41,267 nt of DNA, from NCBI RefSeq assembly GCF_016653405.1, contig NZ_NHSN01000005.1, forward strand, positions 1 through 41,267. The letters run 5' to 3'. The notes under the pieces were generated by a model that saw only the letters and a program-made list of their open reading frames with translations, was not told the DNA's origin and made no database searches. Positions 9,247-29,243 of the stretch are shown piece after piece (the stretch's first letter is position 1; each line of letters opens with the position of its first letter). Made by a program: the position numbers and the translations under genes. The DNA comes from Halorhodospira halophila (lineage in GTDB: Bacteria > Pseudomonadota > Gammaproteobacteria > Nitrococcales > Halorhodospiraceae).

Positions 9247-9262
9247 TGGCACGCGCCTTGCT
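9247..9262 (+). promoter_or_regulatory. Sigma-54 (-24/-12) promoter of the nifE operon
   Basis: TGGCAC at 9247-9252, a 5-base spacer, then TTGCT at 9258-9262, matching TGGCAC-N5-TTGC. The GG and GC doublets are 12 bp apart. Transcription would start about 9273, 30 bases before the nifE ATG. Confidence 0.88.
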
Positions 9263-20958: not shown

Positions 20959-20974
20959 TGCAACCGGCGTGCCA
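20959..20974 (-). promoter_or_regulatory. Sigma-54 (-24/-12) promoter of nifHDK
   Basis: On the minus strand the sequence is TGGCAC-GCCGG-TTGCA, a full match to the -24/-12 consensus. The start of transcription would be near 20948, giving a leader of about 50 bases before the nifH ATG at 20898. Confidence 0.92.
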
Positions 20975-26564: not shown

Positions 26565-28142
26565 TCATAGGCTCTTGACCGGGATGTCGAGGGTCTTGAT
26601 CCGGTAGGCGATCTGCCGCGGCGTCATGCCCAGCAACCGCGCCGCCTTGGCCTGCACCCAACCGGTGCGCTCCAGCGCGGCGATGACCCGCTCGCGCTCG
26701 TCCAGGTTCGGGTCGTTCGGGTCCGGGGCCGCCGGCCCGGCGGGCAGCACCCCGCCCTCGACGGCCGGCGAGCCGTCCTCGGGGATCCCAGCCAGGATCA
26801 CGGCCTCCTGGTCGATGCGGCCGTCCTCGCTCATGATCGCCGCCCGCTCCAGGGCGTTCTCCAGTTCGCGAACATTGCCCGGCCAGTGGTAGCGCATCAG
26901 CGTGCGGATGGCGTCGTCGGAGATCTCCAGCGCCCGCTCCTGGTTGCTGGCGATGCGCCCGACGAGGAACCGGACCAGCTCCGGGATGTCCTCGAGGCGC
27001 TCGCGCAGCGCCGGCATGGTGATGGTCATCACGTTGAGCCGGTAGTAGAGGTCCTCGCGGAACTCCCCGGCGGCCACCGCCGCCTCCAGATCGCGGTTGG
27101 TGGCGGCGAGCACGCGCACGTCCACCCGCCGGGTCCGGGTGCTGCCCACCCGCTCGAACTCCCCCTCCTGCAGGACCCGCAGCAGCTTCGCCTGGAAGGC
27201 CGGGGAGATCTCGCCCATCTCATCGAGGAAGATGGTGCCGCCGTCGGCCTGCTCGAAGCGCCCCACCCGGCTCTGCACAGCGCCGGTGAAGGCGCCTTTC
27301 TCGTGGCCGAAGAGCTCGCTCTCGAGCAGGCTGTCGGGCAGCGCCGCGCAGTTGAGCTTGACAAAGGGCGCGTCGGCCCGGGGCGAGTTGTAGTGGATGG
27401 CGTTGGCCAACAGCTCCTTGCCGGTGCCGGACTCACCGCGCAGCAGCACCGTAGTGCTCCACTGCGCCACCCGACGCACCTGCTCGAAGACCCGGCGGAT
27501 AGCCGGGGTCCGGCCGATGACGTTCTCGAAGCCGTAGCTCTCCTGCACCTCCCGGCGCAGGCGGTCGCGCTCATCGACGATGGCCGCCTGCTCACGGTCA
27601 ACCTCGGTGGCCAGGCGGACCGTCTGTGCGACCAGGTTGGCGACCATCTGCATGAACCGAGAGCGCTCGGCCAGCAGCGCGCCCTCGTCGGCGGCGGGCT
27701 GGGCGGCGAGTACGCCCACCGGCGGGTCCTGCTCGCCGGGGCCGTTGATGGGTACACCGATGAACGGCAGATCCGGATCGTAGAGGCCGAGCCGATCGAG
27801 GAAGCGCGGCTCCTCGGAGATGCGCCGCACGATCAGCGGCTCGGCGTGATTGAGGATCTCGCCAACGATCCCCTCGCCCGGCCGGTAGGCGACCTCATTG
27901 GCGGGGCTCTGCCCATACAGCGCGCGCACGATGGTCTCGCGGCGGACGGGGTCGCGCAGGGCGACCATCCCGGAGTGCATATCGGCGTGCTCGTGGAGCA
28001 CCTCCAGGACGGCCTGAAGGCTCTCGCGCAGGTCGAGACTGCGCGAGAGCACCCGGCTGACCTGGTACAGCGCCTCGAGCTGGGCCTCGACCAGTTCGGC
28101 CCGGGCGCGTTCTCGGGGGCCGACGGACGTGGGGTTCTCCAT
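26565..28142 (-). CDS. nifA: Nif-specific sigma-54 activator NifA
   Basis: The 525-residue regulator has an N-terminal GAF domain (about 25-180), a Q-linker-like helix and an AAA+ domain. The AAA+ domain has Walker A GESGTGKE (236-243), the sigma-54-contact loop GAFTGA (283-288), Walker [11 protein letters not shown] (301-310) and [13 protein letters not shown] Fis-type HTH ([28 protein letters not shown]) lies at the C-terminus. It should bind the TGT-N10-ACA sites in this window and drive nifE, nifH, nifB and rnfA. The linker between the AAA+ and HTH domains ([14 protein letters not shown]) has no Cys pair, unlike oxygen-sensing alphaproteobacterial NifA; that form normally depends on NifL, which is not here. 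The ATG has GGAGGGGAG upstream, and a palindromic element starts 21 bp before it. Confidence 0.93.
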
Positions 28143-28162
28143 GAATACTCCCCTCCGCTAGG

Positions 28163-28410
28163 TGCATCGGTTTTGGCTGGCCCAGATGGGGTCAGGGGGC
28201 CCCAAGGCGTCATTGAACGCGCCGAGCATCGCAGCCCCGGCAGGGGTTCGGCGCGAACCTTTACGGGTTCGCGCCGATCAGCGCGCAGCCACAGCGAAGC
28301 GTGTTCTGCGCGCGGCCCTGCCGGGGTGAGAAGCGCAGGAGACCCGCAGGGCGCGTTCGTCAGACGCCTTGGGGCCCCTGACCCCATCTGGGCCAGCCAA
28401 AACCGTTGCA
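28163..28410. repeat. 248-bp palindromic, MITE-like element between nifA and rnfA
   Basis: The outer arms are 28163-28211 and 28363-28410. They are complementary over about 48 bases with one mismatch and one single-base gap, and include GGTTTTGGCTGGCCCAGATG on the left and its complement on the right. Symmetry continues inward (GAACGCGCC against GGCGCGTTC, CCCCGGCAGGG against CCCTGCCGGGG). The core holds a perfect 12-bp hairpin (28248-28277, TCGGCGCGAACC, loop TTTACG) and an 8-bp hairpin GCGCGCAG/CTGCGCGC (28281-28313). TGCA is found at both ends. It encodes no protein that I can see. The form resembles a non-autonomous inverted-repeat element, or a paired REP/REPIN-like unit. It must contain or displace the nifA promoter. 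Confidence 0.8.
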
Positions 28411-28450
28411 ACTCCCGTTCCAGACAGCCGGCGAACCGTCGACCCCCGTT

Positions 28451-28466
28451 TGTCGCGTTTCTCACA
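28451..28466 (+). promoter_or_regulatory. NifA upstream activator sequence 1 for rnfA
   Basis: TGT at 28451-28453, ten bases, ACA at 28464-28466. It shares the extended start TGTCG with the second site, whose TGT lies 40 bp downstream (about four helical turns). Confidence 0.75.
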
Positions 28467-28490
28467 GTGGTTCACGGAAGGTGATGCTTT

Positions 28491-28506
28491 TGTCGTCTGT
28501 GCCACA
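28491..28506 (+). promoter_or_regulatory. NifA upstream activator sequence 2 for rnfA
   Basis: TGT at 28491-28493, ten bases, ACA at 28504-28506. It lies 91 bp upstream of the -24 element. Two phased sites suggest strong, cooperative NifA control of the rnf operon. Confidence 0.75.
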
Positions 28507-28597
28507 TCGGTGCAACGGCACCTCTTTGGTGCAAATGGGCGAGGTTCGGACGGGATGACGCGGGGTTGCGGGACCGTGGTGCTCAAAGGGTACCGGC

Positions 28598-28612
28598 TGG
28601 CACGGCTGATGC
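28598..28612 (+). promoter_or_regulatory. Sigma-54 promoter of the rnf operon
   Basis: TGGCAC (28598-28603), a 5-base spacer, then ATGC (28609-28612). GG and GC are 12 bp apart; only the first base of the -12 box departs from TTGC. Transcription would begin near 28624, about 35 bases before the rnfA ATG. Confidence 0.8.
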
Positions 28613-28658
28613 TTGACCCGTAGCGAACGCCGCCGACGGGCCGGGAAAGGGAAAGAGG

Positions 28659-29243
28659 ATGACGGAATACCTGCTACTGCTGCTCGGCGTCGCCCTAGTG
28701 AACAATGTGGTCCTGACCCAGTTCCTGGGGCTGTGCCCGTTCATGGGTGTGTCGAACCGACTGGATACCGCCCTGGGCATGGGCCTGGCCACCACCTTCG
28801 TACTCACGTTGGCGGCGGCGGCCGGGTGGGTGATCGAGCACGCCCTGCTCATCCCCCTGGACCTGGAGTTCCTGCGCATCCTCAGCTTCATCCTCGTCAT
28901 CGCCGGGACCGTGCAGTTCACCGAGATGGCCGTCGCCCGGGTCAGCCCCGCCCTGCACCAGGTTCTGGGCGTCTTCCTGCCGCTGATCACCACCAACTGC
29001 GCCGTGCTCGGCGTGGCCCTGCTCAACATCCAGGAAGCGCACACGTTCGCCGAGAGCCTGGTCTTCGGCGTCGGAGCGGCGCTCGGTTTCACGCTGGTTC
29101 TGGTCCTGTTCGCCGGCCTGCGCGAGCGGCTGGCCACGGCGGCGGTACCGGCCGCCTTTGCCGGTGCCCCCATCGGCTTCGTGGTCGCCGGGCTGCTGTC
29201 GCTGGCGTTCATGGGACTGACCGGACTGCCCGAAGGAGGGTGA
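28659..29243 (+). CDS. rnfA: Rnf electron-transport complex subunit RnfA
   Basis: This 194-residue integral membrane subunit is homologous to NqrE. It has six predicted helices, with the conserved [20 protein letters not shown] in the first and [13 protein letters not shown] in the fourth. These two segments carry the Cys residues that in the Rnf/Nqr structures hold an intramembrane iron-sulfur cluster between RnfA and RnfE. It is the first gene of the operon, with AGAGG before the ATG. The sigma-54/NifA control elements upstream tie it to nitrogen fixation, as for the rnf1 genes of Rhodobacter and Azotobacter. Confidence 0.95.

Follow-up and report, generated by a model that had tools for sequence, protein, structure and literature searches.

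A palindrome upstream of nifA in Halorhodospira halophila is one copy of a dispersed structured repeat with arms private to each locus

What is a long, multi-hairpin palindrome doing directly in front of nifA, the master regulator of nitrogen fixation, in Halorhodospira halophila? It lies in a 41,267-nucleotide stretch of contig NZ_NHSN01000005.1 (hereafter the window), between two genes whose identities as nifA and rnfA were borne out by NCBIfam models (Table 1). An initial annotation, made from the letters alone, had placed the palindrome at 28163-28410 and read it as a MITE or paired REP-like unit, as DNA that either carries the nifA promoter or has separated nifA from it, or as a structured RNA leader controlling nifA. 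The palindrome is real, and its coordinates and structure hold: the arms are complementary at 49 of 52 columns, with two mismatches near the outer end and one gap, the symmetry goes on inward of the arms, where the interior forms further helices, and the perfect 12-bp hairpin is present in the core. The spacing holds too, with the nifA ATG (28142) 20 bp from 28163 and the first NifA-type site (28451) 40 bp from 28410. When the element was folded as RNA, both strands gave an extreme energy (-204.7 kcal/mol for the + strand, -206.6 for the - strand, z about -15.5), and none of 200 shuffled sequences was as good on either strand. The innermost part of the left arm (GGCGTC/GACGCC) is common to a few copies of the repeat family described below; the right arm, by eye, is like the promoter-side sequence of the relative G006.

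Table 1. Features of the nifA-rnfA region, in window coordinates.
Feature	Position	Strand	Remark
nifA	26565..28142	-	TIGR01817
DNA from promoter -12 end to nifA ATG	28143..28406	-	about 250 nt predicted leader
Left private arm, nifA side	28160..28211	+	49/52 columns complementary to 28363-28413
Conserved structured core of the repeat family	28213..28360	+	covariance models R1, R2
Perfect 12-bp hairpin within core	28248..28277	+	halves 28248-28259/28266-28277
Right private arm, promoter side	28363..28413	+	outer end overlaps -12 element of nifA sigma-54 promoter
Predicted nifA sigma-54 promoter TGGAACGGGAGTTGCA	28407..28422	-	11/12 consensus positions
NifA-type upstream site TGT-N10-ACA, outside element	28451..28466	.	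motif presumed
Second NifA-type upstream site, outside element	28491..28506	.	motif presumed
Predicted rnfA sigma-54 promoter	28598..28613	+	11/12 consensus positions
rnfA	28659..29243	+	TIGR01943

Searching the element against its own genome (G000) returned 25 matches at E <= 1 and, besides the self match and its own mirror match, all of them fall in the element centre. Using a covariance model built from 33 cores (R1), we found 19 copies in this genome, which bears out the initial reading as a dispersed repeat, and members in nine of the 54 genomes of the order, own included; the others hold 17 (G009), 15 (G006), eight (G003), seven (G004), six (G010), four (G005), two (G013) and one (G001). 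A broader model (R2), built from 29 cores that came partly from loci the R1 search had found in the same genomes, found matches in 50 of the 369 genomes sampled from the class (the own genome counted) and in 41 of 272 genera, with the best nine candidates per genome scored. In the same sample R1 matched 23 of 369 genomes, with the best seven candidates per genome scored; both models were roughly calibrated for these class-wide searches. The core of the family is a multi-helix hairpin of about 115-170 bp with fixed unpaired motifs. The element at nifA is firmly identified as a dispersed structured repeat, a single member of a non-coding family that is old and dispersed in Gammaproteobacteria. 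The family is unlikely to stem from an assembly fault, because it is also present in G006, a relative whose genome is a single contig. Some contigs end directly at a copy of the repeat (L008, L014, L016, L018, L161, and L163-L165), which seems to break assemblies.

The family does not correspond to anything named in the resources searched. A permissive Rfam scan of window positions 27500-29000 gave no match at gathering score and two sub-threshold matches, and among nine distant loci only a tRNA matched. We found no name for the family in literature holding the core or hairpin sequences (subscription literature was outside the scope of this search), the three papers returned being biomedical judging from their titles, and no relevant paper among literature titles on Halorhodospira together with palindromes or repeats. 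A pattern scan of genome contigs gave no match for a 26-mer of the arm and 21 matches for a core pattern; four of these fall in a single Ectothiorhodospiraceae MAG, and the other 17 are singletons from different taxa, which we take for chance matches. Across the wider Gammaproteobacteria, the same core is often found without long arms (arm scores 10-26). In this armless state it often has a shared CCCG or CCCT end before it and a second hairpin, GGTTACTTTTCTTT...AAAGAAAAGTAACC, after it, and it often occurs as head-to-head pairs. Loci with this second form of the core, which lacks private arms, often stands in head-to-head pairs and is often followed by a TTTCTTTTGGTTACTTTTCTTT-type hairpin, are L263, L265-L267, L269-L271, L278-L282, L286-L291, and L297-L317; they span many gammaproteobacterial families, and no name was found for this form either. 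At L302:411-1627, L307:438-1648, and L317:1501-2908, two opposite cores stand about 0.9-1.2 kb apart around an orphan reading frame, one of the frames matching DUF4760 and two having no Pfam match; this might be a gene-cassette arrangement.

Helix P2 of the core has many double-sided changes, with as many as four kinds of Watson-Crick pair at one position and three G-U among 290 cells in a 29-sequence alignment, and the 33-core alignment holds 34 G-U cells versus 11 A-C cells, 28 of the 34 in three column pairs. Over 68 copies, the + strand of the core folds lower by 3.7 kcal/mol on average, with fewer G-U pairs (145 versus 190), so the strand-stability test was mixed. The unpaired motifs of the core are invariant, and together with the strand-biased stability they would fit a functional RNA or a protein target.

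The flanks of the core were examined by comparing the left flank of each copy with its own reverse-complemented right flank. From 79 model matches, 11 were removed as second or duplicate copies in a locus or as truncated matches, and three of the remaining 68 copies had too little flank, which left 65 for the test. The own-arm score was at least 40 in 60 of the 65 copies (median 74), while a control shifted 350 bp further out reached a maximum of 28 over 62 sites, and mismatched left and right flanks from the same genome scored at least 40 in five of 681 pairs, all five in G009. The arms are thus copy-specific, private to each locus. By genome, private arms were found at all copies in G010 (6/6), G013 (2/2), G132 (6/6), and G141 (3/3) and at one of two in G256. 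The core does not automatically lead to arm growth, since many genomes of the wider family have the core without long private arms. A G4-N(0-4)-TG-N(0-2)-C4 motif, chosen post hoc and seen in Halorhodospira-type copies (e.g., L009, L088, L101, and L260), is present, always in one orientation, in eight of 50 left arms, where about 0.06 would be expected, an indication that some of the arm sequence derives from the element and not from the flank. Two copies in G132, L274 and L275, have the same core and arms, agree over almost the whole left outer flank, and differ further right; they look like a recent duplication that took the arms along.

How common such arms are away from the core was gauged in a sample of 396,001 readable bases from G006 plus the window. 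Three inverted repeats in this sample scored at least 40, and all three contain this family's core, which in one of them is reduced and was recognized by reading and by a weak model match (E 4.6e-5); a fourth, top-scoring row and one match in the shuffled control were runs of N. The locus L197:11716-11969 is a two-tier palindrome with perfect 37-bp outer arms, an asymmetric middle, and long inner arms, and its core is reduced, with the middle hairpins gone.

To follow the arms through time, we used ortholog pairs with both flanks matched, 12 between G000 and G006 and five between G000 and G004; L257/L198 (one flank, inverted) and L006/L090 (inconsistent match) were left out of the former. Over 18 pairs, that is, these 17 and one G006-G004 pair, arm identity was 0.94 within a copy, 0.83 between species on the same side, and 0.67 between unrelated arms. 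Summed over 17 pairs (one of the 18 has no arm zone), 132 changes were mirrored in the two arms versus 63 confined to one arm, a count biased toward mirrored changes by the choice of a zone with an arm match of at least 85% and affected by the poor alignment of strongly diverged arms; the better-aligned pairs only gave 66 mirrored and 47 one-arm changes. One-arm changes outnumber mirrored ones in seven of the 17 pairs, mostly close ones, and four G000-G004 pairs show nine mirrored and 10 one-arm changes. This excess in close pairs is expected of mutation followed by later homogenization, and it is also less striking than the total. In some pairs, such as L012/L091, a block has been replaced in both arms together. 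Arm mismatches, counted in 33 of 39 copies, comprised 20 G-U, 22 A-C, and 54 transversions versus 1564 matches, and therefore neither strand tolerates G-U pairs as an RNA stem under selection would be expected to. There is good support for the arms evolving in concert at the level of DNA. One candidate for directional copying, from right to left in the outer arm of L017, was dropped as the sister arms match about equally (20/27 versus 20/26), and MAFFT alignments of the empty sites of L002, L005, and L013 were too diverged to show an ancestral arm.

The core, too, has changed relative to its surroundings, being inverted with respect to the flanks in seven of the 12 G000-G006 pairs and in one of the five G000-G004 pairs. 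These inversions could be partly an assembly effect, since the assemblies of G000 and G004 consist of many contigs and the arms measure 30-50 bp, so that assembler error could yield some of them; the mirrored divergence of the arms is free of this weakness. L013 and L154 agree in core orientation with respect to the far flanks, but the sequence enclosed by the outer arms looks inverted, as though one inversion had occurred inside another. Template switching is known to homogenize the arms of inverted repeats and to invert the spacer between them, as described in the available part of PMC8604942, and the copies studied here show the same two changes, arms changing together and spacers inverting. 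The inversions described in that part of PMC8604942 involve 2-5 bp spacers in yeast genes, whereas the present family has, at many loci, a core of about 150 bp enclosed by arms of 30-50 bp. The core in this lineage sits at the tip of a long inverted repeat private to each locus; by such a mechanism, a polymerase meeting the hairpin would switch template and copy one arm from the other, leaving the arms nearly identical, and the same switching could invert the core. We infer that template switching is the best available mechanism for keeping the arms nearly identical, because the mirrored arm divergence, the core inversion, and the absence of a G-U excess in the arms all fit it. Nematomorph mitochondrial palindromes are likewise long perfect inverted repeats for which template switching has been proposed to explain concerted arms (PMC6649704); they lie in coding mitochondrial DNA, and the passages available from that source mention no conserved core repeat such as the one found here.

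Comparison with known repeats upheld one half of the initial reading as a MITE or REP-like unit, the dispersal, and went against the other, since it is the center and not the ends that is conserved, the arms are copy-specific, and no Y1/RAYT transposase accompanies the repeat in this genome. Terminal inverted repeats common to the copies, as expected of a MITE, were not found, given the five of 681 mismatched pairs scoring at least 40 versus 60 of 65 own pairs. ERIC, Correia, and NEMIS are MITE-like repeats of 100-250 bp that are dispersed, form a strong hairpin, and have common ends and usually target duplications; the present family is alike in size, dispersal, and hairpin and differs in its copy-specific terminal arms. 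The outer ends of the element could not be fixed because the arms are private, and the aligned empty sites in relatives are too diverged to define a target-site duplication. The sole transposase family sought, Y1_Tnp (PF01797), had no match in G000, G004, or G005 and one fragment below cut-off in G006; it occurs without the repeat in G002 (five matches) and G008 (six matches) and together with it in G001, G003, G009, and G010. RAYT mobilization in this genome was rejected, no Y1 transposase having been found. REP/BIME elements with RAYT are, in the parts of the sources available, likewise intergenic, palindromic, and dispersed in Gammaproteobacteria, and the inverted pairs in the wider family are a further likeness (PMC2817692, PMC3733652); Halorhodospira is not named in PMC3733652. 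REPs, as described in the available part of PMC2817692, measure 20-40 bp and the palindrome is itself the repeated unit, unlike the present core of about 150 bp with its private arms and no Y1-type gene, and the core alignments that we read show no GTAG-type head, in a core of about 115-170 bp. Bacterial stem-loop repeat families are likewise repeated intergenic stem-loops, concentrated 3' of genes, and their abstract mentions neither private arms nor arm turnover (PMC1590033).

Placement was counted for 40 copies in three related genomes, of which 24 lie between convergent, 11 between tandem, and five between divergent gene pairs, with genes called heuristically and not taken from annotation and with orthologs in the three genomes not independent. 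The nifA copy is among the five divergent placements, three of which represent a single orthologous locus. When 17 own-genome copies were tested, 12 proved to have an ortholog in G006 by both flanks and are therefore old residents; their retention may reflect selection. Of 13 cores from this genome, seven resemble another copy there more closely than their own ortholog (in two of the seven the ortholog has a shortened core), a sign that copies have exchanged sequence or that the repeat has spread anew.

At nifA itself, all seven genus members compared, own included, have a sigma-54 promoter match in the nifA-rnfA gap, on the same strand in each (nine to 11 of 12 positions; G004 and G008 left out). 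From the end of this match to the putative nifA start codon there are 43 nt in G001, 46 nt in G005, and 264 nt here, because the element is interposed. By this comparison, the nifA copy appears to have entered the stretch between the conserved promoter match and the ribosome-binding site, which stays outside the hairpin. The element has thus not separated nifA from this promoter match, which lies immediately upstream, and carries no more of it than the -12 end that it overlaps, contrary to the two alternatives proposed at first. As the element lies just downstream of this match, most of it would probably be transcribed as the nifA leader, whose start we place by presumed sigma-54 promoter geometry. 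The TGT-N10-ACA sites at 28451 and 28491 we take to be NifA-type. Elsewhere in the window, full 12/12 sigma-54 promoter matches were noted at 20959-20974 (-) and 9247-9262 (+).

The element is missing from the nifA locus in five of six relatives compared (G001, G002, G003, G005, and G007), where the searches list no core match, and the sixth, G006, has a shortened, inverted remnant with decayed arms. A role as a conserved nifA regulator is not supported by this sequence comparison, because five relatives lack the element there and the remnant in the sixth is decayed and inverted. Of the proposed structured RNA leader controlling nifA, the leader survives as a predicted position and the control does not; nor is the element a single-copy sequence conserved at nifA with compensatory change, and its arm mismatches have no G-U preference. 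Its absence in five relatives speaks for a passenger, with an effect on expression possible, and most likely the nifA copy is a passenger that is tolerated and affects nifA expression modestly at most.

Taking these results together, we consider it probable that a dispersed core sits at the tip of private arms that template switching homogenizes, inverting the core as well, and that the nifA copy is a tolerated passenger in the leader. Selection could instead act on arm perfection itself, were the repeat a bidirectional 3'-end element (a terminator or mRNA 3' protection) kept at convergent gene pairs. The 24 of 40 heuristic placements that are convergent and the 12 of 17 copies with a two-flank ortholog in G006 are what such an element would show, and its symmetry would make orientation irrelevant, in line with the inversions. 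We nevertheless regard it as unlikely, given the five of 40 divergent placements, nifA included, the lack, by eye, of a T-run immediately following the arms in those sequences that were read, and the mirrored block changes, hard to reach by compensatory point mutation and again unaccompanied by a G-U excess. A related proposal, that the core was inserted into the loop of pre-existing long terminator hairpins, so that the arms are old terminators, seems very improbable to us: the 396 kb sampled contain no long inverted repeat without the core, a result on which the proposal was rejected, and orthologous sites carry different arms in different species, self-complementary in each. The convergent placements speak for it here as well, and at the L019 site a short hairpin is visible by eye in G006, but none is in the more distant G001, G003, and G005.

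Selection on the RNA fold, with the element as a structured regulatory leader of nifA, has in its favor that the element is predicted to lie in the leader, downstream of a conserved sigma-54 promoter match, together with the extreme folding energy and the conserved unpaired core motifs. It is improbable in view of the five relatives without the element at nifA and the decayed remnant in G006, of the same core at some 18 other places in this genome, mostly between convergent genes (heuristic), and of arms without a G-U excess and a sequence without an Rfam match at gathering score. We give an equally low chance to a still mobile element that, on hairpin-primed insertion, copies the target flank in inverted form, the arms being made only once. 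Insertion of this kind would account for private arms at nearly every copy and for the cores closer to a paralog than to their ortholog (seven of 13, two with a shortened core in the ortholog), and the L006 site in G006 lacks the core and the right arm and has, by eye, one left-arm-like stretch. That empty-site alignment, however, is short and GC-rich, no Y1 transposase was found in G000, G004, or G005, and 12 of 17 own copies are at orthologous G006 sites and yet their arms often differ there.

On the preferred reading, with template switching maintaining the arms and nifA hosting a passenger, the odd nifA leader is explained without invoking a regulator, and such palindromes carry the warning that they can break or mis-orient draft assemblies. 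We also consider, as a doubtful extension, that the core acts as a "palindrome maker": this conserved DNA hairpin would rewrite its flanks into private perfect inverted repeats and repeatedly invert itself, perhaps via a dedicated host or element factor at the unpaired core-arm bulge. If this were true, there would be a naturally invertible leader before the master regulator of nitrogen fixation. The family is a widespread repeat, still unnamed in the resources searched, and it offers dozens of natural loci at which the upkeep of palindromes by template switching could be measured across species, with the conserved core as a marker.
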